Shown: positions 21,530 through 37,641 of the stretch, piece by piece
Layout of the letters: each line of letters opens with the position of its first letter
Numbering within the stretch: position 1 is the stretch's first letter
Origin: Alphaproteobacteria bacterium
GTDB lineage: Bacteria; Pseudomonadota; Alphaproteobacteria; UBA2966
NCBI GenBank assembly: GCA_021296255.1
Contig: JAGWAU010000025.1
Span: 1 to 64,000 of the forward strand
DNA length: 64,000 nt
Reading direction: 5' to 3'
Notes under the pieces: model-generated
What the model was told of the DNA's origin: nothing
The model's input: only the letters and a program-made list of their open reading frames with translations
The model's database searches: none
Made by a program: the position numbers and the translations under genes

Positions 21530-23011
21530 ATGTCCGAGACGGATCTTGAGAAATACGTCAATGCGGAGGGCCGCTCTGACCTGGTCAGGCAGGTTCGCGA
21601 AAAGATCGATGAACTGGATATTCGATATATCTACTACCAGTTCATTTCGGTCACGGGACGCATCGTCGGCAAGGGCATCCCGGCGGATCATTGGGAGACC
21701 ATCGCGGAACGCGGGTTCCAACTGGTCTACGGCGCCACGGCCAACCTCTACACGGACCGACACGCCAATTACATCGGCTACGGCCCGGAGGCGTCGGAGC
21801 TGGTCGGCATTCCCGATCCGGAGACCTTCGCCCAGTTGCCCTGGGACAAGCGCGTCGGCCGCGTCTTCTGCACCTGTTTCCGGAACCGCGAGGAGCTCGA
21901 GAATCCCGGGGGATTCCTGACCTCGGACTGCCGCGGCAACCTGCGCCGCATCCACGACGAATTCAAGGACAAGCACGACGGCCTGCACCTGCGGCACGGC
22001 ACCGAGCCGGAGATGATGTGGCTGAAGAAGGGCGAGGACGGGCTTCCGGACGGCGGCGTTTCGAAGCCCAACTGCTACCACCTGGACCAGTTCGAGATCT
22101 TGCGTCCGGTATTCCTCAAGGTCGTCGAATACGCCCAGGCCATGGGCCTCGACATGATCCAGGGAGACCATGAGGACGCTCCCGGTCAGCTCGAGCTCAA
22201 CTTCAACTTCGACGACGCGCTGCGCACCTGCGACCGGTTGACCACCTACCGTCAGATCTGCGCCGCCGTGGCCCGCGAGTTCGACATCATCGCCTGCTTC
22301 ATGTCGAAGCCGTTCATGGGCGTCTCGGCCTCGGGCTGCCACCACAACATTTCGCTGTGGCGCGGCGGCGCCGAACAGCTCGTCAACACCGCGCACGCCG
22401 AATCCAGGCCCGGGGCCGACGGCGTCTACGCGTACTTGAAGGGCGGCGAGAACACGTTCCTGCCCGACCCCGCCATCGACGAGCGCAAGCCGGGACCGAC
22501 CGGCCTGCAATGCATCGGCGGTGTGATGGAGCACGTCGGCGCCCTGACGGCGCTCGGTTCGTCGACGGTCAATTCCTACCGCCGGCTGTGGGACACCGGG
22601 TTCTGGGCGCCGGTCTTCGCCGATTGGGGCTATCAGAACCGCACCTGCGCCCTGCGCATCTCGGCGCCGGGGCGCTTCGAGTACCGCTCCGTCGACTCGA
22701 TGGTGAACCCCTACTTGATGGCGGCGGGTCTGTTGAAGGCGTTCGATGACGGGATGGCGCGCGGTCTCGATCCGGGCGAGCCCGAGGAACGCAACATCTA
22801 CGAGGCCATGGAAGCCGGAAAGCTGGTCAAGAAACTTCCCATGTCCTTGGGTGAAGCCCTGGAGCGCCTCGACGACGACGAGGTCATCAAATCCGCCTTA
22901 CCCGACGAGATGTACCGGGTGTTCACTCACTACAAAGGCGACGAATGGGCCAAATTCAACGCCACGGTCACCAACTGGGATCTCGAATCCTATTGGGACT
23001 GCCTGCCATAA
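21530..23011 (+). CDS. Glutamine-synthetase-like ligase, first cluster
   Basis: The 493-residue enzyme belongs to the glutamine synthetase superfamily. The metal/glutamate motif reads GDHEDAPGQLELNFNF (canonical NHEVGPGQ.E) and the ATP-binding segment KPFMGVSASGCHHNISLW. The R-E closing segment reads RISAPGRFEYRSVDSMVNPY. The beta-grasp N-terminal domain is compact. It differs from GlnA in lacking the adenylylation Tyr region and is nearer to gamma-glutamylmethylamide/gamma-glutamyl-amine type ligases. It heads an operon with three glutamate-synthase-like subunits and amtB. The start at 21530 follows ACGGGAGGTAGCAG. Whether it uses ammonium or an amine cannot be decided by eye. Confidence 0.82.
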   Translation: MSETDLEKYVNAEGRSDLVRQVREKIDELDIRYIYYQFISVTGRIVGKGIPADHWETIAERGFQLVYGATANLYTDRHANYIGYGPEASELVGIPDPETFAQLPWDKRVGRVFCTCFRNREELENPGGFLTSDCRGNLRRIHDEFKDKHDGLHLRHGTEPEMMWLKKGEDGLPDGGVSKPNCYHLDQFEILRPVFLKVVEYAQAMGLDMIQGDHEDAPGQLELNFNFDDALRTCDRLTTYRQICAAVAREFDIIACFMSKPFMGVSASGCHHNISLWRGGAEQLVNTAHAESRPGADGVYAYLKGGENTFLPDPAIDERKPGPTGLQCIGGVMEHVGALTALGSSTVNSYRRLWDTGFWAPVFADWGYQNRTCALRISAPGRFEYRSVDSMVNPYLMAAGLLKAFDDGMARGLDPGEPEERNIYEAMEAGKLVKKLPMSLGEALERLDDDEVIKSALPDEMYRVFTHYKGDEWAKFNATVTNWDLESYWDCLP

Positions 23012-23050: not shown

Positions 23051-23986
23051 ATGTGCGGCATAGCTGGTCTCATTCATCGCGGCACGACCGCAGACATCGG
23101 CACCGAAGTGACGAACATGCTGCAGTCGTTGAAGCATCGCGGTCCCGATTCCACGGGCTTTGCGATTTACGGCCAACCGGTCGCCGACGAATACGTCATG
23201 CGCTTCAAGGTCGCCGAACAGGAGGACATGGCGACCGGATTCCGGATCCACGACGAGATCAAGGAGCGGCGGGCGATCGTGGATTCCCGTTTCGATGAAA
23301 AGGGTGCGGTCATGCTGTCGCAGGAGGATGCCACGGAGTACGCCTACCGCTACCGCTTCACGTTCGACGGCGATCTCGAACAGCTGGCCCGTTACATCGA
23401 GGATGTGGAAGGGGCGGAGATCCTCTCCCTTGGCAGTGGCCTGGAATTGATCAAGGATCTCGGCGACGCAACGACCGTGTCCGGCCAATACGGACTAAAC
23501 GGCTTTCAGGGCACGCACGCGATCGGGCATACGCGCATGGCGACGGAGTCGGACGTCGATATCCGCTCGGCCCACCCCTACTGGGCGTATCCGTATAACG
23601 ACATCTCCGTGGTCCATAACGGCCAGATCACCAACTACTGGCTCATGCGCCGCGAGATGGAGCGGCGCGGACACCGCTTCATGTCCAACTGCGATTCCGA
23701 ATTGCTGGCGGTCTACACCGCGGACAAACTGAACAACGGATACACCCTGGAGGAATCGCTCGCCCAATCGATCGAGGAAATCGACGGCGTGTTCACCTAC
23801 GTCGTCGCCACGGCCGACTGTCTGGGGATGGCCAAGGATACCATGGCGGCCAAGCCCATGGTGCTCTATGAGAGCGAGGACACGGTGGCGCTCGCTTCTG
23901 AGGAAGTCGCTATCCGCGCACTCATCCCGGAGGAGATCGAGACCTACGACCCGTATGACGAGGAGGTGCGGGTATGGCAGGCCTAA
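23051..23986 (+). CDS. Class II glutamine amidotransferase subunit (MgsA/GlxB-like)
   Basis: The 311-residue Ntn-type amidotransferase begins MCGIAGLIHRG, so Cys2 becomes the N-terminal nucleophile. It keeps KHRGPDSTGFAIYG, HTRMATESDVDIRSAHPY and VHNGQITNYW for glutamine binding, and CDSELLAVY. It corresponds to the amidotransferase domain of glutamate synthase as a separate subunit, as in MgsA of N-methylglutamate synthase and rhizobial GlxB. It ends in a segment that overlaps the next gene by 13 bases, with AGGAGGTGCGGGT as ribosome binding site inside it. A second paralogue lies at 30797. Confidence 0.88.
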   Translation: MCGIAGLIHRGTTADIGTEVTNMLQSLKHRGPDSTGFAIYGQPVADEYVMRFKVAEQEDMATGFRIHDEIKERRAIVDSRFDEKGAVMLSQEDATEYAYRYRFTFDGDLEQLARYIEDVEGAEILSLGSGLELIKDLGDATTVSGQYGLNGFQGTHAIGHTRMATESDVDIRSAHPYWAYPYNDISVVHNGQITNYWLMRREMERRGHRFMSNCDSELLAVYTADKLNNGYTLEESLAQSIEEIDGVFTYVVATADCLGMAKDTMAAKPMVLYESEDTVALASEEVAIRALIPEEIETYDPYDEEVRVWQA

Positions 23987-24822
23987 GCGATCAGGACAAC
24001 GAGTCCTACGAGATGGGGATGCACACCGAGCAGCTCGCCGGACGCACTCAAGAGATCTTCTTCTCGCCCCGGGAGGGGGAGAACTTCGTCCACCCGGACT
24101 CCTTCGACGTCGACTTCGACAAACGCGCCGAGTTCGACGCCGCCGGGTTGGAGATCGCCGAAATCAACCTCAAAATCCGCGAGCTCATGGAGTCCGGACA
24201 CGGTACCATCGTGGTTAGGAACCCGGGCGCGCGGCACTCCATCGGCGTCGGCATTCTCAACCGTCTCAACCTGATCATCGATGGCAGTCTGGGATACTTC
24301 GGCGTCGGCCTCATCGATGGACCCAACGTGCGTATCAGCGGTCGCGTCGGCTGGTCCTGCGCCGAGAACATGATGGCTGGGACCGTGGTGGTCGAAAAGA
24401 ACGGGGGCTCGACCTTCGGTGCCGCGCTGCGGGGCGGGGACCTCGTCTGCCGCGGCGCCGTGGGCTCGCGTACCGGCATAGACATGAAGGGAGGCACCAT
24501 CATCGTCGGTGGCGACACGGGCGCGTACTCCGGATTCATGATGCAAAGGGGCCGCATGGTGGTTTGCGGCAACGCCGGCAAGAACCTGGGCGACTCCATG
24601 TATGACGGCACCATCTTCGTGGGTGGCGAGATCCGGAGCCTCGGCGTCGATGCGGTTCCGGGCGAAATGACGGACCTGGATCGGGCTTGGCTCGAACGAA
24701 AGCTCGCCATGTACGAACTGCTGCCATCGCGGGGGGTCGGCCACTTCCAGAAGATCGTCGCCGGCAAGCAGCTATGGAACTATGACAATCTCGAACCCAC
24801 CGAAAAGAAGATCGTCCTCTGA
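23974..24822 (+). CDS. GXGXG-domain glutamate synthase-like subunit (MgsB/GlxC-like)
   Basis: The 282-residue protein corresponds to the C-terminal right-handed beta-helix (GXGXG) domain of glutamate synthase. The repeating GXXXGXG pattern is seen in GVGLIDGPNVRISGRVGWS, GGDLVCRGAVGSRTGIDM, GGTIIVGGDTGAYSGFMMQ and GRMVVCGNAGKNLGDSMYDG. In the family this domain is structural and links the ammonia tunnel to the FMN domain. It is a free subunit here, while the second cluster has it fused to the FMN domain. It overlaps the amidotransferase gene and is 13 bases before the FMN subunit. Confidence 0.88.
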   Translation: MAGLSDQDNESYEMGMHTEQLAGRTQEIFFSPREGENFVHPDSFDVDFDKRAEFDAAGLEIAEINLKIRELMESGHGTIVVRNPGARHSIGVGILNRLNLIIDGSLGYFGVGLIDGPNVRISGRVGWSCAENMMAGTVVVEKNGGSTFGAALRGGDLVCRGAVGSRTGIDMKGGTIIVGGDTGAYSGFMMQRGRMVVCGNAGKNLGDSMYDGTIFVGGEIRSLGVDAVPGEMTDLDRAWLERKLAMYELLPSRGVGHFQKIVAGKQLWNYDNLEPTEKKIVL

Positions 24823-24835
24823 GAGGGAACGAACG

Positions 24836-26218
24836 ATGTCAGATTCACAATCCCTCGCCCCCATGCCGAATGGTGGTTCACGGAAACCGTCCCGCAGCAA
24901 AGACGTGCTGGGGCGCAGTCAGATCTACACGCGCGAGGTCATCGACGACATCCATATCAAGGCGGAGCTTGGACGCTACCGGATGCGCGGGTTCTCCTTG
25001 TTTAAGAAAATTCCGCACTGGGACGATCTGACGTTCCTTCCGGGCACGCTGACGCGCTTCGTCATCGAGGGTTACCGCGAGAAGTGCCTGACCGAGACGG
25101 TCATCGGCCCGCGGGCGAAAAAGCCGATCGTGCTCGACATTCCCGTCTACATCACGGGCATGAGCTTCGGCGCGCTTTCCTACGAGGCCAAGACCGCGCT
25201 GGCCCGCGGGGCGACGATGGCGGGTACGGCGACGTGCTCGGGCGAGGGCGGCATGATCCCCGATGAGCGCCGCTATTCGACCAAATGGTTCTACCAGTGC
25301 ATTCAGTCGCGCTATGGCTTCAACCCGCACCACCTGAGGTTGGCGGACGGCTGCGAGTTCTTTATCGGCCAGGGCTGCAAGGTCGGGCTCGGGGGCCACC
25401 TGATGGGCCAGAAGGTCACCGACCAGGTGGCGGAGATGCGCTCGCTCCCCGCGGGTATCGACCAGCGCTCGCCTGCCCGCCATCCCGACTGGCTGGGGCC
25501 CGACGACTTGGCGCTGAAGATCCAGGAGGTCCGGGAAGCCACCGACGGCCAGATTCCCATCCAACTCAAGCTCGGCGCGGCGCGCGTCTACGACGACGTG
25601 CGCATGGCGGTCAAAACCGACCCCGACAGCATCTACATCGACGGTATGGAGGGGAGCACCGGCGCCGGGCCGCACCTGGCGACGGAAGACACCGGTGTGC
25701 CGGGCATGGCCGCGATCCGCCAGGCGCGTCGGGCGATCGACGATCTCGGCAAGCGCGGCGAGATCACCCTGATCTATGCCGGCGGTATCCGTAATGGCGG
25801 CGATATCGCCAAGGCGCTGGCGCTCGGGGCCGACGCCGTAGCCATCGGTCATTCGGCGATGATGGCCCTCAACTGCAACAAGGACATTCCGGAAGCGGAC
25901 TTCGAGTCCGAGATCGGGGTCGAGGCAGGGTACTGCTATCACTGCCATACGGGCCGCTGTCCGGTCGGGGTGGCGACCCAGGACCCCGTCCTGCGTCGGC
26001 GTCTCGATCCCGACGCGGCAGCGGAGCGCGTCTACAACTTTCTTCACACGCTCGCCATCGAGTGCCAGATGATGGCGCGGGCTTGCGGCAAGACCAATGT
26101 CCACAGCCTGGAGCCCGAAGATCTGGCGGCGCTGACCATGGAGGCCTCCGCCATGGCCGGTGTGCCGCTGGCGGGGACCGAGTACACGGTAGGCGTGGAC
26201 GATTATCACCACCTTTAG
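24836..26218 (+). CDS. FMN/Fe-S glutamate synthase-like subunit (MgsC/GlxD-like)
   Basis: The 460-residue protein is the FMN-binding TIM barrel of glutamate synthase as a separate subunit. Seen in order are ITGMSFGALSYEAKTALARG (residues 107-125), the GEGGM loop at 136, IQLKLGAARVYDD near 243, DGMEGSTGAGP near 269 and the flavin phosphate loop AGGIRNGGDIAKALALGADA at 315. The Fe-S site reads C367-x2-C370-x4-C375 in YCYHCHTGRCPVGVATQDP. The start at 24836 follows GAGAGGGAAC. With the two preceding genes it would form a glutamate- or N-methylglutamate-forming synthase; no reductase (GltD) subunit is in this operon. Confidence 0.88.
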   Translation: MSDSQSLAPMPNGGSRKPSRSKDVLGRSQIYTREVIDDIHIKAELGRYRMRGFSLFKKIPHWDDLTFLPGTLTRFVIEGYREKCLTETVIGPRAKKPIVLDIPVYITGMSFGALSYEAKTALARGATMAGTATCSGEGGMIPDERRYSTKWFYQCIQSRYGFNPHHLRLADGCEFFIGQGCKVGLGGHLMGQKVTDQVAEMRSLPAGIDQRSPARHPDWLGPDDLALKIQEVREATDGQIPIQLKLGAARVYDDVRMAVKTDPDSIYIDGMEGSTGAGPHLATEDTGVPGMAAIRQARRAIDDLGKRGEITLIYAGGIRNGGDIAKALALGADAVAIGHSAMMALNCNKDIPEADFESEIGVEAGYCYHCHTGRCPVGVATQDPVLRRRLDPDAAAERVYNFLHTLAIECQMMARACGKTNVHSLEPEDLAALTMEASAMAGVPLAGTEYTVGVDDYHHL

Positions 26219-26233
26219 GGAGGGTACGGATCA

Positions 26234-26644
26234 ATGGCCGGAGGCACCTACAAGGGCTCCGAACTCGGCCATGTCGATCACTTCATCGACGGCGACGGCC
26301 TCGACTCGGAACGCGAAATCGAGATCGGTCAGCACATCGGCTACCGTTATGACGTCAATCTTCTGCCGGATTACGACCGCCTGACCCCCTTTCTCACGAC
26401 CTACATCGAGACGATGGGTTGGGACGACCTCAACTGGCTTGAAGACGTGCACATGGGCTACGAGGAAGGCCGCCCGGCGGTATTCGACCGCAACATCAAC
26501 GGCTGGGTCTCCATCCCGGAAGACACCGAACTGCCCGACAACCAGCAGGATCGCGACATGCTGGCGCGCGAGCTGTTGATCAAGTTTCAGATGTCCAGGC
26601 GTCACCCTTTGGTGGAGTTGAACAAGGCGTACCGGAAATTCTGA
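26234..26644 (+). CDS. Unrecognised acidic protein in the first glutamate-synthase-like operon
   Basis: I do not recognise this 136-residue family. It is soluble, strongly acidic in its first half (DGDGLDSEREIEIGQHIGYRYD) and rich in Asp and Trp in the middle (ETMGWDDLNWLEDVHMGYEEG). It ends with a basic helix, RDMLARELLIKFQMSRRHPL. No signal peptide, membrane helix or cofactor motif is visible. It starts 15 bases after the FMN subunit stop with a good AGGGAGGGTACGG site, so it is certainly translated with the operon. A role as an extra subunit, chaperone or regulator of the synthase is possible. The second cluster has no copy. Confidence 0.8.
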   Translation: MAGGTYKGSELGHVDHFIDGDGLDSEREIEIGQHIGYRYDVNLLPDYDRLTPFLTTYIETMGWDDLNWLEDVHMGYEEGRPAVFDRNINGWVSIPEDTELPDNQQDRDMLARELLIKFQMSRRHPLVELNKAYRKF

Positions 26645-26683: not shown

Positions 26684-27301
26684 TTGACGGAGAGATCCTT
26701 GGAGCCATCGCGTTCGAACGGGGATCAGGTCATCCGGCTCGACAGCGCCAACCGGGAGCTCGCCCTGGCCTTTCTGGGTTGGCAGTGTCGGCTGCGCCAG
26801 ATCGCCTTCCGCCAGAACGGCGGTCGACCCAGCGATGGCATGTCTCCGAAGGTTTTTGTGGGCGATGAATGTCAGGTGGCAGGTCGGATCGTCTCAATCC
26901 TCAACAAGGCCGAATCCGACTCCGTGCTCGTGGAATTTCAGCATTTCTATCGCCGCACGCGCGATCCCGCCCAGCGCCGAGCCGATGTCACTCGGTTTTT
27001 GTCGGAAACCTATTTCCAAAGGCCGCAGACCTTCACGGATCGACTGACCACGGTGTTCCCACCCGGGTCCCGGGTGGCCGAATTGCTCGAGTCGGCCGAA
27101 TCCTGCCGACTCGTGTTTGAGCACTTCAATCAGCGTTACGACCTGACGTGCGAAGCGATACCGCTTCGGGAAGACGATCCCCTGTATCAGTCGACGTTCT
27201 GGCACAACGCGCTGTTCAATCCGGATTTGTCGAAGGATTGCAGGATCCTGGCGCTTGTTCCCAATTGGTCGCGTTGCGCCGCGGATCCGGCACCCGCATG
27301 A
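26684..27301 (+). CDS. Unrecognised 205-residue protein between the synthase genes and amtB
   Basis: The product is soluble, of mixed alpha/beta appearance, and carries no motif I can name. Segments such as DECQVAGRIVSILNKAESDS and VEFQHFYRRTRDPAQRRADV suggest a small beta-barrel followed by helices. It has four Cys scattered late in the chain without a spacing pattern. The likely start is the TTG at 26684, preceded at some distance by GGAGGGG; this makes the exact N-terminus uncertain. It lies in the same direction as the operon, 39 bases after the previous gene and 193 before amtB. No copy is seen in the second cluster. Confidence 0.65.
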   Translation: MTERSLEPSRSNGDQVIRLDSANRELALAFLGWQCRLRQIAFRQNGGRPSDGMSPKVFVGDECQVAGRIVSILNKAESDSVLVEFQHFYRRTRDPAQRRADVTRFLSETYFQRPQTFTDRLTTVFPPGSRVAELLESAESCRLVFEHFNQRYDLTCEAIPLREDDPLYQSTFWHNALFNPDLSKDCRILALVPNWSRCAADPAPA

Positions 27302-27494
27302 GAGTCGGGTTCAGAGGTTTGCTGGAACAAATACTTGTTTCGGAAAGCAGAATCGGTGAACATACCGGTTAATGCTGATGCGAGACTTGGCGATCGTGGC
27401 AGAACTCTCAATCTGATCTTGAACGCCGAACCGGCCGTGTGTACGGGGTGCACGGTGGTCGGTGATTCTATTTGCACCCCGCGGAGAAACCTTC

Positions 27495-28865
27495 ATGGAT
27501 ACAGATGTTGCTGCACTAACAACAGTATTCACTGAATTTTATTACTGGATAACTGTTGCACTGATGTTCCTGATCCACGTTGGCTTCTGCATGTACGAAG
27601 TGGGGGCAAGCAGGCGCAGGAACCACATGCACACCCTGATGAAGAATTCCATGCTGATCCCGTTGGTCACGGTGACATGGTTCTTCTTCGGCTGGTGGAT
27701 TTACTGGGCATTCGCTGGCGGGCCGGGCATCACGGGTCCGCTCGGCCATCCCGATCCAGCCGTTGCGGCGGCGTACACACCGTGGGGCGAAAGCATGGGC
27801 CCCCGCCTCGACGACCGTATCAGCGGCGTCTTCTGGGCAGCGTTCCTGCTGTTCGCCTGGACGGCCGCGTCCATCGTCTCGGGTGCCGTGATCGAACGGA
27901 TTCGCCACTTCGCGTTCTGGATATTCGCCGTCCTGATCGGATCTGTCACCTGGTCGATCGACGCCGCCTGGGGCTGGCACTTCAACGGCTGGATGGTCGA
28001 GCTCCTCGGGTACCATGACGCGTACGCGTCCGGTGTGATTCACGGAATCGCCGGCGGTACGGCCTTGGGCGTTCTGGTCGTCCTTGGGCCGCGCCTCGGC
28101 AAGTTCGCAGCGGACGGCACGCCGCGCGACATCGTGCCTCACAACACCTGGCTGGTGTGTATCGGGTTGTTCCTGATCTATACGGGCTTCTGGGGGTTCT
28201 ACGTGGCCTGCAACGTGCCGCTGGCGACGACCGCTTACATCGACGGCCAGCTCACCGGCGCGACCCAGACCGCGACCACGATTTACCTCACGCCGACCAC
28301 GCTCGGCGCCATCACGGTAAACTTCCTGATGTCGTTGGCCGGCGGGATGTTGGTCGGTTACATGGTGTCGAAGGGCGACGCCTTCTGGACCTACTCGGGT
28401 GGCCTTGCCGGCATCATCACGGCGTCCGCCGGCAACGACCTCTATCATCCGATCCAGGCGATGATCATCGCCGGCATCGGCACCTTCCTCATGTACAAGA
28501 TCCACTATTGGGTCGAACGGAGGTTCAAGGTCGACGACGCGGTCGGCGCCGTGGCGGTCCACGGCTACGCCGGCGTCATCGGTCTGGTCCTTGCGGGTTT
28601 CGTGCTTTGGGGACACCCCTCGTCACCCTATGAGGGCTTCGCCGCCATCAATCCACTCGGCCAATTGGTCGGCGCGGTCATCATGTTCGGGGTGCTTGGT
28701 TTCCTCCCCGCCTGGATCATCGCCAAGATCCTTCACTCGCAGGGCCTGCTTCGCATTCCGCGTGAGATCGAGGTGCTCGGTCTCGACTTCCTCAGCAACA
28801 AGGAAGCCGAGGCGGCGCGCGCGGACGTGGTGGCTGGGGTTCGCTCCGAGTCCGCGGGCGCCTGA
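27495..28865 (+). CDS. amt: Ammonium transporter (Amt family)
   Basis: This 456-residue membrane protein has about eleven hydrophobic helices in Amt order. The Asp and first pore His are spaced as in AmtB (D-x7-H in HDAYASGVIHGIAGG), and the second pore His lies in AVHGYAGVIG. The family helix SIVSGAVIERIRHFAFW is also present. N-terminal helix FTEFYYWITVALMFLIHVGFCMYEVGASRRRN is characteristic of a branch found beside glutamate-synthase-like genes. It moves ammonium, or methylammonium, into the cell. The ATG at 27495 gives the usual N-terminus. No separate PII gene is adjacent. It probably supplies the synthase and ligase encoded upstream. Confidence 0.9.
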   Translation: MDTDVAALTTVFTEFYYWITVALMFLIHVGFCMYEVGASRRRNHMHTLMKNSMLIPLVTVTWFFFGWWIYWAFAGGPGITGPLGHPDPAVAAAYTPWGESMGPRLDDRISGVFWAAFLLFAWTAASIVSGAVIERIRHFAFWIFAVLIGSVTWSIDAAWGWHFNGWMVELLGYHDAYASGVIHGIAGGTALGVLVVLGPRLGKFAADGTPRDIVPHNTWLVCIGLFLIYTGFWGFYVACNVPLATTAYIDGQLTGATQTATTIYLTPTTLGAITVNFLMSLAGGMLVGYMVSKGDAFWTYSGGLAGIITASAGNDLYHPIQAMIIAGIGTFLMYKIHYWVERRFKVDDAVGAVAVHGYAGVIGLVLAGFVLWGHPSSPYEGFAAINPLGQLVGAVIMFGVLGFLPAWIIAKILHSQGLLRIPREIEVLGLDFLSNKEAEAARADVVAGVRSESAGA

Positions 28866-30047: not shown

Positions 30048-30680
30048 ATGATGACGGAGGCTGAGCGGCTGGACTATCAGCACCCTCACGCGACCGAGGT
30101 CGACGACAGCAGTCTCGAGGTGTCGATCGGCGGGGAGGTGCGGGAATTCCGCAAGAAGCTCGACATGACGGTGGCGGAGCTCGCCAAGGCGTCCGGACTG
30201 TCGGCGGGTATGCTGTCCAAGATCGAGAACGGCATGACGTCGCCCTCCCTGGCCACGCTGCGAGCTCTGTCGCGGGCCCTGCACGTTCCCGTCACGGCGT
30301 TCTTCCGGAAGTTCGAGGAGGAATTGGACGCTACCTACGTACGGGCGGGACAGGGTCTGGCCATCGAGCGGCGAGGGACCCGCGCCGGCCATCAGTATCA
30401 GCTTCTGGGCCACAGCGTCGGCAAGAGCGTGGCCGTCGAGCCGTACCTGATCAGCCTGACGGAAGAGTCGGACGTCTTTCCTCTCTTCCAGCATGCGGGA
30501 CAGGAGTTCATCTACATGCTGGAAGGCGAACTGAACTACCGGCACGGGGACAAGACCTACGCATTGCTCCCCGGTGATTCGCTGTTTTTTGACGCGAATG
30601 CGCCCCACGGACCGGAAGAGCTGCGCAAACTGCCGATTCGCTTCCTCTCCGTCATCGCGTACTCCAGGGACTCGGAGTGA
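30048..30680 (+). CDS. XRE-family regulator with cupin sensor domain
   Basis: The 210-residue protein has an N-terminal helix-turn-helix, REFRKKLDMTVAELAKASGL followed by SAGMLSKIENGMTSPSLATL, and then the RALHVPVTAFF linker. A C-terminal cupin domain follows, with GQEFIYMLEGELNYRHGDKTY and LLPGDSLFFDANAPHGPEEL. The cupin His residues are partly kept. Such regulators often sense a small amine or amino acid and control neighbouring catabolic genes. The gene lies just upstream of the second glutamate-synthase-like operon, separated by an inverted repeat and a promoter, so it is the obvious candidate controller. Confidence 0.88.
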   Translation: MMTEAERLDYQHPHATEVDDSSLEVSIGGEVREFRKKLDMTVAELAKASGLSAGMLSKIENGMTSPSLATLRALSRALHVPVTAFFRKFEEELDATYVRAGQGLAIERRGTRAGHQYQLLGHSVGKSVAVEPYLISLTEESDVFPLFQHAGQEFIYMLEGELNYRHGDKTYALLPGDSLFFDANAPHGPEELRKLPIRFLSVIAYSRDSE

Positions 30681-30796: not shown

Positions 30797-31705
30797 ATGT
30801 GCGGAATCGCTGGCGTCCTCTTCAAGAATCCTGGACTCAACGCGAAGCTCGGCGAGACCCTGATCGAAATGCTCGACGGGTGTCAGCACCGCGGGCCCGA
30901 TTCGACGGGATTCGCGCTGTACGGAGGCGACTCGGACACCTCGGAGTTCGTCTTGCGGTTCCATGTCGGCACGGGGGACGAAGGTTCCGAGAACGTGGAT
31001 CGCGTGGTACGGGCGCTGAAGGAGTTCGAAGCCCAAATCATCGACGGCGAACACGTCGGCAGCACCTACCGGGTAACGGTGTGCTACGAAGGCGACGTCC
31101 AGAAATTCGCCTACGCCATGGAGCATGCGGCGAAGCTGTTCTCCATCGGTAGCACCCTCGACATCGTCAAGGACATCGGCGGCGCCCACGACGTCGACGA
31201 GGTTTACGACGTCCATTCCGTGGACGGCAGCCACGGTCTCGGACACGTGCGTCTCGCCACGGAGTCCGACGTCAAGCCGGAAGCGGCGCACCCGTTCTGG
31301 GCCACCGGCTTCTCCGATGTGGCGATCGTCCACAACGGTCAGATCACCAACTACTGGAAGATGCGCCGGCTGTTGGAACAGCGCGACTACGAGTTCCATA
31401 CGGACAACGATTCCGAGCTCATCGCGGTCTACCTTGCCGACAAGCTCAAGCACGGAGATACTCTGAAGCAGGCCCTTGAGACCTCGATCGACGACCTCGA
31501 CGGCACGTTCTCGTTTCTCGTGTCGACCAAGGACGAGATGGGCTACGCCAAAGACCGTCTCGCCGCCAAACCGATGGTGCTCTACGAAAACCATGATCTC
31601 ATCGCCATCGCCTCGGAAGAGGTCTCTCTCAACCGCCTGTTTCCGGGTCAGGCCCTTGATACGACCGAACCGCCGCCTGGGACCTGCGCGACATGGTCAC
31701 GGTAG
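30797..31705 (+). CDS. Class II glutamine amidotransferase subunit, second cluster (MgsA/GlxB-like)
   Basis: This 302-residue paralogue of the protein at 23051 begins MCGIAGVLFKNPGLN. It keeps QHRGPDSTGFALYG, HVRLATESDVKPEAAHPF, VHNGQITNYWKMRR and TDNDSELIAVY, all needed for Ntn glutaminase activity with Cys2 as nucleophile. The start at 30797 is fixed by the need for an N-terminal Cys after Met removal. It overlaps the next gene by 13 bases, exactly as in the first cluster, suggesting both clusters descend from one operon. Confidence 0.88.
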   Translation: MCGIAGVLFKNPGLNAKLGETLIEMLDGCQHRGPDSTGFALYGGDSDTSEFVLRFHVGTGDEGSENVDRVVRALKEFEAQIIDGEHVGSTYRVTVCYEGDVQKFAYAMEHAAKLFSIGSTLDIVKDIGGAHDVDEVYDVHSVDGSHGLGHVRLATESDVKPEAAHPFWATGFSDVAIVHNGQITNYWKMRRLLEQRDYEFHTDNDSELIAVYLADKLKHGDTLKQALETSIDDLDGTFSFLVSTKDEMGYAKDRLAAKPMVLYENHDLIAIASEEVSLNRLFPGQALDTTEPPPGTCATWSR

Positions 31706-33678
31706 ACCTGAGCGAGCTGCCGGTCCGCGAAGCCAATGACCTGATCCGGAAGGCGGGCGCGGACGGCGAGGACGTCGAAGTCCTCAACCCGGATGCGCGG
31801 CATCACATCGGGGTCGGTCTGGCCCATCCCATCACGGTGCGCATTCGAGGATCGGCCGGCTATTTCTGCGCCGGTCTGACCGACGGACCGCGCTTCGAGG
31901 TCGAGAGCAACGTCGGCTGGGGCCTCGCCGACAACATGTACCAGGGTTCTGTGGTCGTCGGCGGCAATGCCAGCGCCATTCCCGCCGTCGCCATCCGCGG
32001 CGCCGAGGTCGTGGTCAAAGGGAACATGGGTTCGCGCGCCGGCCAGGTCATGAAGGAGGGCACGCTGCTCTGCGGCAAGAACGCAAACTTCATGGCCGGC
32101 TACATGATGTACGGCGGGCGTATCGTAATTCTCGGCGATTCCGGCGAGCGCGTGGGCGAAGACATGACCGGCGGCGAGATCTTCGTCGGCGGCAAGATCC
32201 AGTCGCTGGGTGCCGCGGCCATGCAGACCGACATGGAGAGCGCCGAGGACAACGAACTGCGCGCGCTTCTCGACAGGTACGAAATCCCTTTCGCGGGGAC
32301 CTTCAGCAAAATCGTCAACGAAGGCGGCAATCTGCGCTATGCCAACCCGGAGCCGCGGCGCCGGGCCATCCCGTTCTTCACCTTCTCGGGTAAGTCGAGC
32401 TACTGGAACGAGAAGGTCCAGGAGGACATCTACGTCAAATCCAAGATCGGTCGTTACCGCATCCGGGGTTATGGCGGTGCGCGGGCGTTGCCGCATCTCA
32501 ACGACATAGCGTTCAAGAAAGACCTGAGCACCGCCGGCAGCGAGACAGACGCCGTCAGCAAGGTCAACCTGCACACCGAAGTCGGCGGGCGCCACGGGGC
32601 CAAACCGCTGAGACTTTCCATGCCGGTGATGATCTCGCCGATGAGCTTTGGGGCGCTGAGCAAGTCGACCAAGCTTGCCATGGCCAAGGCCGCGGCCATG
32701 GCCGGAATCTCGGAAAATACCGGCGAAGGCGGGATGATGGACGAGCAGCGCGAAGCCGCCGATCAGCTTATCTTCCAGATGCTGTCGGGGCGCTTGGGTT
32801 GGAACGTCCACGACATGCAGCGGGCCGATGGTCTTGAGATCTATATCAGCCAAGGCGCCAAGCCCGGGTTCGGCGGCCAGCTTATGGCGGCCAAGGTCAC
32901 CGAGGAGATCGCGCGGATCCGTGGCATTCCCCACGGCATCGATCTACGCTCGCCGTCACGCCACCCGGACATTCTCGGTGCCGACGATCTGGTCATCAAG
33001 ATCGAGGAGATGCGCGAAGCCACGGGCTATCGCATCCCGATCGCCGTCAAGCTCGGTGCCGGACGCGTGCGCGACGACATCAAGATTGCCGTGAAGGACG
33101 GCTTCGATTTCATCGAGCTCGACGGCATGCAAGGCTCCACCGGAGCGGCCGGCAATGAGGTGCTCGATTATTGCGGCATTCCGACCATCGCCGCCATCCA
33201 GGAGGCCGAGGAGGCGCTCGCGGACATCGGCCGCCGTCAAGACGTCGACATCGTGCTCATGGGCGGCATCAAGGACGGAATCGATACCGTGAAGGCCTTG
33301 GCGTTGGGGGCCGACGCCATCGGCATGGGAACCTCGGCGATCATCGCCGCGGGCTGTATCGCCTGTATGCAGTGCCACGTCGGTTCCTGCGTCGTCGGGA
33401 TCGCCACGCAGGACCCCGAACACGAGAAGCGCTACAACGTGGATATCGAGGCACGGAATGCGGCACGGTTCCTTGAGAGCGTCCGCTGGCAGATCGCGGC
33501 GCTGACTCATGCGCTCGGTTACGACGATATCCGCCAGCTCAATCGTGAGGACCTGGTGGCGCTGACGTCCGAGGCGGCGGCCATAACCAAGCTTCCCTAC
33601 GCGCCGGAGTATCGTTCCGGCGAACACCAGATTCAGGAGACCGTGGGCATTCAACGCTCCGGGTCACAGCTCCAGTGA
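31693..33678 (+). CDS. Fused GXGXG and FMN glutamate synthase-like protein (MgsB-MgsC fusion)
   Basis: In 661 residues this protein joins the two subunits that are separate in the first cluster. Residues 1 to about 215 form the GXGXG beta-helix (GCGLT-like turns in GYFCAGLTDGPRFEVESNVG and GRIVILGDSGERVGEDMTGG). The rest is the FMN barrel: MISPMSFGALSKSTKLAMAK, GEGGMM, AVKLGAGRVRDD, LDGMQGSTGAAG and MGGIKDGIDTVKALALGADA. The Fe-S site has four Cys at about 555, 558, 561 and 566 (CIACMQCHVGSC), one more than in the first cluster. Note the domain order, GXGXG before FMN, which is the reverse of canonical GltB. Confidence 0.88.
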   Translation: MVTVDLSELPVREANDLIRKAGADGEDVEVLNPDARHHIGVGLAHPITVRIRGSAGYFCAGLTDGPRFEVESNVGWGLADNMYQGSVVVGGNASAIPAVAIRGAEVVVKGNMGSRAGQVMKEGTLLCGKNANFMAGYMMYGGRIVILGDSGERVGEDMTGGEIFVGGKIQSLGAAAMQTDMESAEDNELRALLDRYEIPFAGTFSKIVNEGGNLRYANPEPRRRAIPFFTFSGKSSYWNEKVQEDIYVKSKIGRYRIRGYGGARALPHLNDIAFKKDLSTAGSETDAVSKVNLHTEVGGRHGAKPLRLSMPVMISPMSFGALSKSTKLAMAKAAAMAGISENTGEGGMMDEQREAADQLIFQMLSGRLGWNVHDMQRADGLEIYISQGAKPGFGGQLMAAKVTEEIARIRGIPHGIDLRSPSRHPDILGADDLVIKIEEMREATGYRIPIAVKLGAGRVRDDIKIAVKDGFDFIELDGMQGSTGAAGNEVLDYCGIPTIAAIQEAEEALADIGRRQDVDIVLMGGIKDGIDTVKALALGADAIGMGTSAIIAAGCIACMQCHVGSCVVGIATQDPEHEKRYNVDIEARNAARFLESVRWQIAALTHALGYDDIRQLNREDLVALTSEAAAITKLPYAPEYRSGEHQIQETVGIQRSGSQLQ

Positions 33679-36209
33679 GTGTTCAAGAAACGCCGCCGCG
33701 GGTGAACGTCGAGTGTCCTCCCGAACTCCTCGACGATACCGACGACGCCAACTTCGTGCCGGCGCCCTGTCAGGTCGCCTGCCCCATCGGTACGGACGCG
33801 CCGTCCTACATCGCCTACATCTGGGAAGACAAGGTCGAAGAGGCTTTCGAGGCAATCACCGCCACCAATCCGTTCAGTTCCATCTGCGGCCGGGTTTGCG
33901 ATGCCCCGTGCGAGCCGGCCTGCCGCCGCGCCGACTCCGACGGCCCCCTGGCGATTCGCAATCTCAAGCGCTTCGTCATGGATCAGCTCGGAAAGGATCA
34001 CCATCTGCCTCCCGTCGAAGTCACGAAGGACAAGACAGTGGGCATCGTCGGTTCGGGGCCGGCGGGTATGACCGCCGCGCAGGACCTGGCCGAGGCGGGC
34101 TACGAGGTGCACCTCTACGAGATGACCGACCGCCTCGGCGGCATGATGGTCTGGGGCATCCCGGCCTTTCGGCTTCCGGTGGGGATCATCCAGGAGGACA
34201 TGGACCGAATCCTCAATCACTGCCCGGGCATCAAGGTGCACCTCAACACCGGGCTCGGACATGAGGTAACCCTCGAAGAGCTCAAGGAGCGGCACGAGGC
34301 GGTGTTGCTCTGCATCGGCTCCTGGTGGGGCAAGACCATGGGCGTGCCAGGTGATGAGGACCCGCGCATCGTCGACGGCGTGTCCTTCCTGCGGCGCGTC
34401 AACGGCGGCGAACGGCCCGAACTGCCCGAGACCGTCGTGGTCGTCGGCGGCGGTGACGTCGCCATGGATGCCTGCCGCGTGGCCAAGCGTCTGCCCGGCT
34501 GCAAGCACGTCAAGGTCGTCTATCGTCGGGGGCCGGAGCAGATTCCCGCCCGCAAGGACGAACTCCATGGCGCCATCAGGGAAGGCGTCGAGTTCGTCTA
34601 CAACACACAGCAGGTCGCCGTAGTGAAGAGCGGCAACGAGATCGCGCTACGTTGCGTCATCACCAAGATGGGGGAGCCGGAAGAAGACGGCCGCCGAAGG
34701 GCCGTCCCGGTGAAAGGGACGGAGCACGACATTCCCTGCGGCATGGTGATCTCCGCGGTCGGCCAGAAGGCGGAGAGCGACCACCTCGATCAGCTCGGTT
34801 TCATGGACTGGGACCGTATCCACGCCGACTTCGACTCGATGCGTACGGCGGACCCCAACGTTTTCGCCGCTGGGGACGGTGCCTTCGGGGGTTCGACCAT
34901 CGTGGTCGCCATGAACCATGGCCATCGCGCGGCCTACTACGTGAAGGCCTATCTGGAAGGGAACGAGGTTCCTGCGTCCTACCGTACCCCCTATCGTACG
35001 CGCCGCGTGCCCGTCGCCCAGGACTCCAATTGGGAGCTTTTCCCGCGCCGGGAGCAAGAGTTCCACGGCCTCGGGGCGAACCCGGTGGCGTTTCCAGAGA
35101 TCGAGTCGCGCTACGACGCGCAGACGGCGCGCGACGAGGCGGCGCGCTGCTACCGCTGCGATGCGGAGAACGGATCGGCCGACTACACGGTGTGGAACCG
35201 GGAGGATATCTTCGCCATGGCGCGCATGGCGCCGTCCGACGAGGCCAAGCAGCAGGCCATGCTGTTCAAGCGGATGCAGAACCGCGAGAATCCGTTTCCG
35301 GAGGATCGCCCGCCGACGATCGACGATCTGGTTTTCCTGTCGGCCAACCTCTCGCGCCTCGTGATCGACCCCTACCGCGATTCCTGTGTCACGGAAACCG
35401 GCATGATGGGTGGGTCCCTGGTGATGAAGTACCCCATGATGGTGACCGGCTTCGACGGTGTGTCCGACGAGATCCGCGAGGGACTGGCCGCAGGCATAAC
35501 GGAACCCAATGTCGCCTACGTGGGCTTCCGCCGCCTGCACCGGGACGTGCCTTGGCTGCAGCTCGTCGTGCCGGGCGAGAGCGAGCCGGATCCGGACGCC
35601 ATCGGCGTCATCTACGTGACCGGAGAAACCTTTCGTCCCGTGCCGCCGGAACGAGCGAACGAGGGACAGGGCTTGGGCCTGGTGGTCCGCGCGTCCAACG
35701 TCGACGAGGCGGTGCCTTTCGCCCTCGACAGCGGTTTCGATCTTCTGTTCGTGGATTCGACGATCGGAATCGAGACCGCATGGCCGGAGCTCGAAGGCGC
35801 TCCCGATCTGTCGGCGGCACGCGACACGGTACGCAAGCTCCGCGCGCTGAAGCGCGAAGGCGACATCGAGATCGCCTACTTCGGCGGCATCCGGTCAGGG
35901 ACCGACCTCGCCAAGCTGCTCGGCCTCGGCAGCCACGCCGGCATCGTCGGCGTCTCGATGGGCCTCGCGCTCGGCGGCGAGATCGTGCCGTCGGGCAATC
36001 GTCAGGCCATCGTCTTCCCGCCCGACCTGACGCACGAGGATCTGAGCACGGGCGCCGCCAACTATCTCAAGGCGTCCAACAGCGAGTGCTCGATGATGGC
36101 GCGCTGCGCCGGCAAGACGAACGTCCACAACATCGAGCCTGAAGATCTGCGCTCCATCACCATCGCGACCGCGGAAGCCACCGGCATTCTGCTTGCCGGC
36201 ACGCAGTAG
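33675..36209 (+). CDS. GltD-type NAD(P)H oxidoreductase fused to a decayed FMN-barrel domain
   Basis: The 844-residue protein has two parts. Residues 1 to about 500 are a complete GltD/DPD-type module. It has an N-terminal Fe-S domain with Cys at 32, 36, 71, 75, 79 and 83, FAD loop GIVGSGPAGMTAAQDLAEAG at 123, second nucleotide loop VVVVGGGDVAMDACRVAKR near 256, and C-terminal FAD segment VFAAGDGAFGGSTIVVAM. Residues from about 543 align with the FMN subunits: TIDDLVFLSANLSRLVIDPY matches WDDLTFLPGTLTRFVIEGY, and the end SMMARCAGKTNVHNIEPEDL matches QMMARACGKTNVHSLEPEDL. The barrel has lost the SFGALS, GEGGM and Fe-S Cys motifs but keeps FGGIRSGTDLAKLLGLG. The GTG start overlaps the preceding stop. 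Confidence 0.85.
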   Translation: MSVQETPPRVNVECPPELLDDTDDANFVPAPCQVACPIGTDAPSYIAYIWEDKVEEAFEAITATNPFSSICGRVCDAPCEPACRRADSDGPLAIRNLKRFVMDQLGKDHHLPPVEVTKDKTVGIVGSGPAGMTAAQDLAEAGYEVHLYEMTDRLGGMMVWGIPAFRLPVGIIQEDMDRILNHCPGIKVHLNTGLGHEVTLEELKERHEAVLLCIGSWWGKTMGVPGDEDPRIVDGVSFLRRVNGGERPELPETVVVVGGGDVAMDACRVAKRLPGCKHVKVVYRRGPEQIPARKDELHGAIREGVEFVYNTQQVAVVKSGNEIALRCVITKMGEPEEDGRRRAVPVKGTEHDIPCGMVISAVGQKAESDHLDQLGFMDWDRIHADFDSMRTADPNVFAAGDGAFGGSTIVVAMNHGHRAAYYVKAYLEGNEVPASYRTPYRTRRVPVAQDSNWELFPRREQEFHGLGANPVAFPEIESRYDAQTARDEAARCYRCDAENGSADYTVWNREDIFAMARMAPSDEAKQQAMLFKRMQNRENPFPEDRPPTIDDLVFLSANLSRLVIDPYRDSCVTETGMMGGSLVMKYPMMVTGFDGVSDEIREGLAAGITEPNVAYVGFRRLHRDVPWLQLVVPGESEPDPDAIGVIYVTGETFRPVPPERANEGQGLGLVVRASNVDEAVPFALDSGFDLLFVDSTIGIETAWPELEGAPDLSAARDTVRKLRALKREGDIEIAYFGGIRSGTDLAKLLGLGSHAGIVGVSMGLALGGEIVPSGNRQAIVFPPDLTHEDLSTGAANYLKASNSECSMMARCAGKTNVHNIEPEDLRSITIATAEATGILLAGTQ

Positions 36210-36321: not shown

Positions 36322-37641
36322 ATGGCTGTCGATCTGGCCAAGGTCGCCAAAGACCGGAAGATCAAATATTTCCTCGTCAGTTTTGTCGATCTGTTTGGCG
36401 GCTTGAGGGCGAAGCTGGTGCCCGCCCGTGCGATCGGGGACATGCAGAAGGAAGGTGCCGGCTTCGCCGGCTTCGCGGCTTGGCTCGACATGACGCCCGC
36501 CGATCCGGACATGTTCGGCGTGCCCGATCCCGACAGCCTCATTCAGCTTCCCTGGAAGAAGGATGTCGCGTGGGTCGCGGCCGACCTCTGGATGAATCGC
36601 AAGGAGGTCGAGGCCTCGCCCCGCATCATCTTGAAGCGCCAGATCGAGAAGGCCGCCAAGAATGGCTACCGCCTCAAAACCGGCGTCGAATGCGAATACT
36701 TCCTGGTCATGCCTGATGGTACGGCGATCTCCGATCCCTTCGATACTCAGGAGAAACCTTGTTACGACCAGCAGGCACTGATGCGGCGCTACGACGTTAT
36801 CAGCGAGATCTGCGATGCGATGAACGAACTGGGCTGGGGGCCCTACCAGAACGACCACGAGGACGCGAATGGCCAGTTCGAGATGAACTGGGACTATTCG
36901 GACTGTCTGACCACGGCGGACCGGCACGCGTTCTTCAAGTTCATGGTCAAATCCGTCGCCGAGAAGCATGGCCTGCGGGCGACGTTCATGCCGAAGCCCT
37001 TTACCGGGCTGACGGGCAATGGCTGCCACTGCCACGCATCGCTTTGGGACAAGGCAGGCCGCAAGAACCTTTTCCTCGACAACAAGGACGAAATGGGGCT
37101 GTCGAAGCTCGCCTACAACTTCCTCGGCGGAGTTCTCAATTCGGCGGGTCCCTTGTGCGCCTTTTTCAATCCGACGGTGAACTCTTACAAGCGCATCAAC
37201 GCACCCACCACGTTGTCGGGTGCCAGCTGGTCGCCGAACTCGGTGACTTACGGCGGGAACAACCGGACCCATATGGTCCGAATTCCGGACGCCGGCCGCT
37301 TCGAATTCCGCCTCATGGATGGGTCGGCCAACCCGTATCTGCTCCAGGCCGGCCTGCTGGCCACGGGTCTCGACGGCATTCAGAACAAGCGGGATCCGGG
37401 CAAGCGGCTCGACGTCAACATGTACGAGTACAGGCGAGCCTCGGAGCTTCGCCGCCTGCGTATACGGAAGCTGCCGCTGAACCTCCTCGACGCCCTGCGT
37501 CTGCTCGACAAGAGCAAGATCATCCGCGCCGGGATCGGCGACGAGTCGGTCGACAGCTACGTCAAGCTGCGGATGAACGACTGGCTGAGCTACGCCAGCC
37601 ACCTTACCGACTGGGAGCGCGAGCACACGCTCGACTGCTAG
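36322..37641 (+). CDS. glnT: Type III glutamine synthetase GlnT / gamma-glutamylmethylamide synthetase-like
   Basis: The 439-residue enzyme matches the GlnT/GmaS branch very closely. The N-terminus is IKYFLVSFVDLFGGLRAKLV and GFAGFAAWLDMTPADPDMFG follows. TGVECEYFLVMPDG, QEKPCYDQQALMRRYDVISE and NDHEDANGQFEMNWDYSD carry the metal-binding Glu residues. MPKPFTGLTGNGCHCHASLW is the ATP/glutamate site, and RIPDAGRFEFRLMDGSANPY closes the protein. Members join glutamate with methylamine, or with ammonium, at the expense of ATP. It starts 112 bases after the GltD fusion, behind CAGGGAGGGAG. The palindromic hairpin downstream ends the operon. The choice between ammonium and methylamine needs assay. 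Confidence 0.88.
   Translation: MAVDLAKVAKDRKIKYFLVSFVDLFGGLRAKLVPARAIGDMQKEGAGFAGFAAWLDMTPADPDMFGVPDPDSLIQLPWKKDVAWVAADLWMNRKEVEASPRIILKRQIEKAAKNGYRLKTGVECEYFLVMPDGTAISDPFDTQEKPCYDQQALMRRYDVISEICDAMNELGWGPYQNDHEDANGQFEMNWDYSDCLTTADRHAFFKFMVKSVAEKHGLRATFMPKPFTGLTGNGCHCHASLWDKAGRKNLFLDNKDEMGLSKLAYNFLGGVLNSAGPLCAFFNPTVNSYKRINAPTTLSGASWSPNSVTYGGNNRTHMVRIPDAGRFEFRLMDGSANPYLLQAGLLATGLDGIQNKRDPGKRLDVNMYEYRRASELRRLRIRKLPLNLLDALRLLDKSKIIRAGIGDESVDSYVKLRMNDWLSYASHLTDWEREHTLDC

Follow-up and report, generated by a model that had tools for sequence, protein, structure and literature searches.

A GltD-type reductase fused to a decayed FMN barrel in a putative N-methylglutamate synthase variant of Alphaproteobacteria

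The closest described systems are the N-methylglutamate synthase MgsABC, the glutamate synthase GltBD (2vdc, 6s6x, 7mfm) and the GlxBCD-type clusters. In M. extorquens DM4 the order mgsABC-gmaS is the same as at the locus described here (PMC6237917), and the redox cofactor of MgsABC was stated in 2018 to be unknown, the candidates being NADH, NADPH and ferredoxin (PMC6237917). The electron path of glutamate synthase has been reviewed (PMC8097209), and the central domain of its alpha subunit (GltS) is a duplicate of the FMN barrel that has lost three beta/alpha units, an example of fold decay in SCOP (PMC5011417). In gamma-glutamylmethylamide synthetase (GmaS), the residues that separate the enzyme from glutamine synthetase are Trp300 and Ala48, and the catalytic residues are Asp177, Glu186 and Arg312 (numbering of RhGmaS; PMC7948447).

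The window, i.e. the whole stretch of 64,000 nucleotides of an alphaproteobacterial contig (JAGWAU010000025.1) that was analysed, contains a trio of overlapping genes (30797-36209) directly followed by gmaS (Table 1). Like MgsABC, the trio includes amidotransferase, GXGXG and FMN-barrel parts in the same order, with mgdABCD-like genes nearby in some genomes; it differs in that the MgsB and MgsC equivalents are fused, a GltD-type reductase is added, and a second, inactive mgsC-type barrel is attached to this reductase. The active barrels of the trio (P0002) do not fall into the clade of the mgsC genes that adjoin gmaS in other genomes: they form a clade of their own, 40-45% identical to the mgsC of L082. 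The trio shares with GltBD the amidotransferase, an FMN barrel with [3Fe-4S] cysteines (CIACMQCHVGSC in P0002, the active barrel of the trio), the GXGXG domain and a GltD-like reductase with two [4Fe-4S] sites, whereas its alpha subunit is split and reordered and its GltD carries the pseudo-barrel tail. The central domain PF04898, which marks the single-chain alpha subunit of canonical GltBD, had no match in P0001 or P0002, the alpha equivalent being spread over two genes. Besides the two split clusters in the window, the genome encodes two canonical GltB (glutamate synthase large subunits) on other contigs (C118 and C32; L001, L002).

Table 1 Coordinates of the trio, its conserved segments and its neighbours in the window.
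Feature	Position	Strand	Details
Ammonium-transporter-like gene	27462-28865	+	Upstream of the regulator; named from its sequence; L046 and L054 have orthologues at this position
HTH-cupin (PuuR-like) regulator	30048-30680	+	Weak NCBIfam PuuR match; recurrent upstream neighbour of the trio in several other genomes
Class-II glutamine amidotransferase-type subunit (MgsA-like)	30797-31705	+	N-terminal MCGIAG; GATase_6, GATase_7; first gene of the trio, conserved
GXGXG and intact FMN barrel fusion (MgsB-MgsC-like, P0002)	31693-33678	+	GXGXG 2e-14, Glu_synthase 4e-98
GltD-type NAD(P)H reductase part	33675-35165	+	Residues 1-497; N-terminal [4Fe-4S] cysteines, FAD- and NAD(P)H-binding domains, YRRG motif
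Pseudo-FMN barrel, decayed copy of an mgsC/GlxD-type FMN domain	35172-36206	+	Residues 500-844, 345 aa; hhalign
Conserved pre-barrel motif DDLVFLSANLSRLVIDPYRDSC	35322-35387	+	Residues ~550-571; mean majority frequency 0.92 (16 members); counterpart in P0003 DDLTFLPGTLTRFVIEGYREKC
Retained FMN-phosphate loop YFGGIRSGTDLAKL	35877-35918	+	Residues 735-748; GG.RSGTD.AK invariant in 16 members
Conserved C-terminal motif SECSMMARCAGKTNVHNIEPEDL	36081-36149	+	Residues ~803-825; mean majority frequency 0.85; also in mgsC-type barrels, not in P0002
gmaS, gamma-glutamylmethylamide synthetase	36322-37641	+	TIGR03105 658 bits, above cut-off; next gene after the trio

The ORF at 33675-36209 starts with GTG, shares 4 nt with the stop of the upstream gene and encodes 844 aa. 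Homology to reductases spans residues ~28-497, with Pfam and GltD family matches at 30-427 (Fer4_20, 2e-22; Pyr_redox_2, 5e-30; NCBIfam, GltD family), and the closest solved relatives in the PDB are GltD-like subunits or domains (GltD chains 2vdc_G and 6s6s_G, E ~4e-58). Both Rossmann domains, for FAD and for NAD(P)H, are found together with intact N-terminal [4Fe-4S] cysteines (C32, C36, C71, C75, C79, C83), whose motifs were seen in all 15 family members with the N-terminus present. In the most divergent member of the family (L053 7772-10303, genome G208), the YRRG motif of the NAD(P)H site is gone, and the reductase function is perhaps being lost; the G208 genome additionally has an ordinary mgsC adjoining gmaS.

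Homology of residues 500-844 to the glutamate synthase barrel (PF01645) was found in profile-profile comparison with the mgsC-type barrels (hhalign; probability 99.9%, E 8e-36). In a search within the same genome, three pieces of the tail aligned collinearly with P0003, the barrel of cluster 1 (E 1e-9 to 4e-6). In Pfam, the tail of the window protein matched FMN_dh alone (E 0.002 with the whole protein, 0.0005 with the tail alone); FMN_dh was matched by 15 of the 16 family members and PF01645 (Glu_synthase) by 12 of the 16 (best 7e-10), the window protein not being among the latter. Because of the P0003 pieces, the family matches and the profile-profile score, the homology of the pseudo-barrel to the mgsC-type FMN barrel, as judged from sequence, is far above chance. 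Together with the loss of the active-site loops described below, it confirms the proposal made when the DNA was first inspected (the sequence-only reading), namely a reductase fused to a degenerate copy of the glutamate synthase FMN barrel. The same reading had the tail aligning at its two ends with the FMN subunits of both clusters; this holds for cluster 1, where the end anchors match DDLTFLPGTLTRFVIEGY and MMARACGKTNVHSLEPEDL of P0003, but not for the fused barrel P0002, from which both motifs are absent.

The decay was assessed on the 39 alignment columns with at least 95% identity among 31 active barrels. Of these near-invariant columns, 9 are kept in the pseudo-barrels, mainly at the beta7-beta8 phosphate end (GG, D, LG) plus one C-terminal Gly, while 12 are deleted and 18 substituted. 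As had been noticed from the sequence, the SFGALS loop, the GEGGM loop and the Fe-S cysteines are missing; the catalytic Lys (K263 of P0003), QGxKxGxGG, much of the GxxGxTGA region and approximately the alpha2-alpha4 connections are lost as well, so that residues 500-844 retain neither the active-site loops nor the [3Fe-4S] loop (30 of the 39 columns lost). The statement that all Fe-S cysteines were gone is true of those of the barrel itself, while the reductase part still has its own. The flavin phosphate loop-like segment does remain: FGGIRSGTDLAK is the FMN-phosphate loop, by sequence the same loop as in the alpha-hydroxyacid oxidases, and is among the best-conserved segments of the pseudo-barrel, where conservation peaks at the pre-barrel motif, at this loop and at the C-terminal motif, with the conserved stretches lying mainly outside the barrel mouth. 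Alignment and model together suggest that all eight strand segments are still there and that the connections around alpha2-alpha4 have been cut. Structure prediction of residues 500-844, which had been proposed as a check, gave an AF2 domain model of low confidence (pLDDT 48.8, pTM 0.48) that is consistent with a TIM-barrel-like core and is no proof of it: the best structural matches of this model were barrels (VIA Z up to 9.2), but the top Foldseek matches had TM-scores of just ~0.15-0.25, too low to carry weight, with glutamate synthase not among the matches listed. A full-length AF2 model from three close sequences reached a pLDDT of 31, too low for use. In the fragmented assembly of genome G021, detached fragments with the pseudo-barrel's C-terminal motif (EASMMARCTGKT..HNLEPEDL) are encoded by three 175-nt direct repeats (L061 193-367, 1919-2093 and 2927-3101), close to a long subtilase-like ORF.

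In the tree, the pseudo-barrels join the cluster-1 type (UFBoot 99) on a branch of 1.6 substitutions per site, and long-branch effects on this placement are possible. Their nearest relatives are thus the barrels of the GlxBCD-type trio (cluster 1, 23051-26218), which differ in having the active site and the Fe-S loop intact and in belonging to a cluster without a reductase gene. Derivation from the operon partner P0002 is disfavoured by the end motifs and by the tree. By sequence, the pseudo-barrel comes from an mgsC/GlxD-type barrel, in an event separate from the decay of the GltS central domain. That domain is likewise a duplicated FMN barrel that decayed through large deletions and no longer has a catalytic role in the enzyme it belongs to; it sits inside the alpha subunit, whereas the pseudo-barrel sits on the reductase and is of the mgsC type. 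The pseudo-barrel is a second example of a decay already known in principle, in another place of the enzyme and from another type of barrel; that it might replace the GltS central domain position for position is an analogy only. The sequence-only reading knew of no glutamate synthase built in this way: literature searches, mainly of open-access papers, found no published description of a pseudo-barrel fused to the reductase, so the placement appears new, but a decayed FMN barrel as such had been described (PMC5011417).

Three further genes accompany cluster 1 in the window. A 136-aa protein without Pfam or NCBIfam match (26234-26644, + strand) is an uncharacterised partner of the GlxBCD-type cluster; it is conserved in L054, L080 and L081 (75-84% identity), where it immediately follows the cluster-1 FMN gene. 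A 205-aa ORF without Pfam match (26684-27301, + strand) has a recognisable counterpart in L085 (4801-5406), at the corresponding position beside the cluster but oriented opposite to its neighbours. The cluster-1 trio is headed by a divergent glutamine-synthetase-like protein (21530-23011, + strand), matched in two pieces and below the cut-off by TIGR03105, with orthologues in L049 and L080.

The fused reductase and pseudo-barrel was found in 16 genomes (the window genome, two congeners and 13 more of the class sample) from 12 genera and 8 families, as grouped by the search tool, the two named matches being uncultured Alphaproteobacteria. An assembly or frame error behind the fused ORF is ruled out, since the same ORF occurs in all 16. 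The class sample (n = 385) included 14 full-length fusions, counting the window's own genome, plus one fragment; in a phylum-wide sample of 398 genomes the fusion was found only in the window's own genome, and no plasmid relatives covering 80% of the query were found. The three overlapping genes occur in order at 14 loci including the window, two more being cut by contig ends. The fused active barrel (>900 bits) and the pseudo-barrel gene occur in exactly the same 14 of the 385 class genomes; no genome of this sample was found to pair the fused active barrel with an unfused reductase. Weaker matches to the fused active barrel in the class sample were separate GXGXG and FMN-barrel genes, and no reductase gene was found in the stretches fetched around them. 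The pairing with the active fused barrel encoded just upstream is thus supported, and its strictness fits a docking or scaffold role.

The product of the gene after the trio is far closer to the RhGmaS structure 7cql (Rhodovulum; E 1e-189) than to glutamine synthetases, and keeps all five RhGmaS residues given above (if the chain numbering of 7cql is taken to be shifted by a 20-residue tag). Orthologues of gmaS are present in 16 of the 16 fusion genomes and in three of 15 control genomes, where they adjoin mgsC (the controls were hand-picked and the counts are raw, regardless of relatedness). An mgdC orthologue occurs in 13 of the 16 (53-60% identity; the two further SoxA-like proteins in the comparison have ~38%), in the window genome on another contig, and in two genomes the trio is immediately preceded by SoxB/SoxA/SoxG-like (mgdABCD-like) genes. 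In L082, the same slot, between SoxA-/SoxG-like (mgd-like) genes plus an HTH-cupin regulator on one side and gmaS on the other, is occupied by an ordinary mgsABC trio without reductase. Ordinary mgsC was found in only three of the 16 fusion genomes, most of which also have a cluster-1-type barrel, and in five (G001, G002, G133, G135 and G324) the barrel of the trio is the only mgsC-type barrel found (E below 1e-80). In nine of the 16, the trio lies away from gmaS or the contig ends too soon to tell. Loss of the Fe-S cysteines was rejected as a mark of mgsC genes beside gmaS, because L082 and L083 keep them and G042 and G056 do not have them.

Given this gmaS/mgd context, and with mgsABC filling the same position in another genome, the trio most likely takes the place of N-methylglutamate synthase and, because of its GltD-type reductase, would draw on NAD(P)H; both the reaction and the donor are inferred. 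We slightly favour, on this basis, a reductase-equipped N-methylglutamate synthase variant as the identity of the trio, and consider the pseudo-barrel to be probably a docking or scaffold domain. The complete explanation, one enzyme of this kind with the dead barrel as its scaffold, is given a probability of about 50%. Points that weigh against it are the nine genomes in which the trio is not seen next to gmaS, the genomes that have an ordinary mgsC or a cluster-1-type barrel besides, and the YRR motif missing from G208. In such an enzyme, GmaS would form gamma-glutamylmethylamide, which the amidotransferase subunit would hydrolyse. In the FMN barrel of the GXGXG-FMN subunit, the methylamine passed on in this way would combine with 2-oxoglutarate to give an imine, reduced by FMN. 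By analogy with glutamate synthase, the FMN would be refilled from NAD(P)H through the FAD of the GltD-type subunit, two [4Fe-4S] clusters and the [3Fe-4S] cluster. The pseudo-barrel would take no part in the chemistry, and would hold the reductase on the synthase subunits as a scaffold; what it retains are its outer segments at the N- and C-termini and its phosphate-binding end.

It is rather unlikely that the trio is instead one more glutamate synthase, dependent on NADPH, split, provided with a docking domain by fusion and simply re-assimilating ammonia. The GltD-type reductase with its YRRG NADPH motif, the intact FMN and [3Fe-4S] barrel, the class-II amidotransferase and the Amt-like transporter gene upstream would all suit such an enzyme, but two canonical GltB are already present in the genome, gmaS and mgdC accompany the fusion in 16 and 13 of the 16 genomes, and the equivalent slot elsewhere holds ordinary mgsABC. 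What the sequence-only reading called a glutamate synthase is thus not simply one; that reading missed the N-methylglutamate-pathway context (gmaS, mgdABCD-like genes, mgsABC slot).

As to the pseudo-barrel, its decay by itself (30 of 39 active-barrel invariants lost, a long branch) might suggest a functionless, still degenerating leftover of a former second synthase barrel. This is hardly credible: length and motifs are kept across 12 genera, no genome was found that pairs the fused active barrel with an unfused reductase, and dN/dS among three congeners is 0.06-0.16 for the pseudo-barrel, similar to the values of its partners, the reductase part (0.05-0.14) and the active barrel subunit (0.05-0.11), so that the pseudo-barrel is under purifying selection as strong as theirs. 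A role as a relay or regulatory sensor, for which the pseudo-barrel would continue to bind FMN or some other phosphate ligand, seems improbable too. The invariant phosphate loop matches the FMN-phosphate element of the hydroxyacid oxidases, and the retained invariants cluster at it; however, the elements that should bind the isoalloxazine ring and work with it (the catalytic Lys, SFGALS, GEGGM and QGxK) are missing, there is no Fe-S cluster for onward electron transfer, and the conservation may be structural. The regulatory sensor put forward at first is therefore not upheld, the retained loop being the one feature in its favour. A scaffold or docking domain is the simplest reading, because there is no catalytic site, the outer segments are conserved, and the pseudo-barrel is fused to the subunit that would dock and is never found apart from the fused active barrel. 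The inactive docking module first proposed accordingly stands in its inactivity and its pairing, the docking itself being what these features would imply.

A more tentative proposal joins these points: an NAD(P)H-fed N-methylglutamate synthase, whose GltD-type subunit is held by a dead MgsC-type barrel, would represent an architecture that evolved twice (compare the GltS central domain). N-methylglutamate synthase is a key step in microbial methylamine use, and a variant with its own NAD(P)H reductase makes the question of its electron donor testable in one purification. The pseudo-barrel would be a second instance of a decayed FMN barrel with a structural role in an enzyme of the glutamate synthase type, and as such relevant to why dead copies persist in these enzymes.
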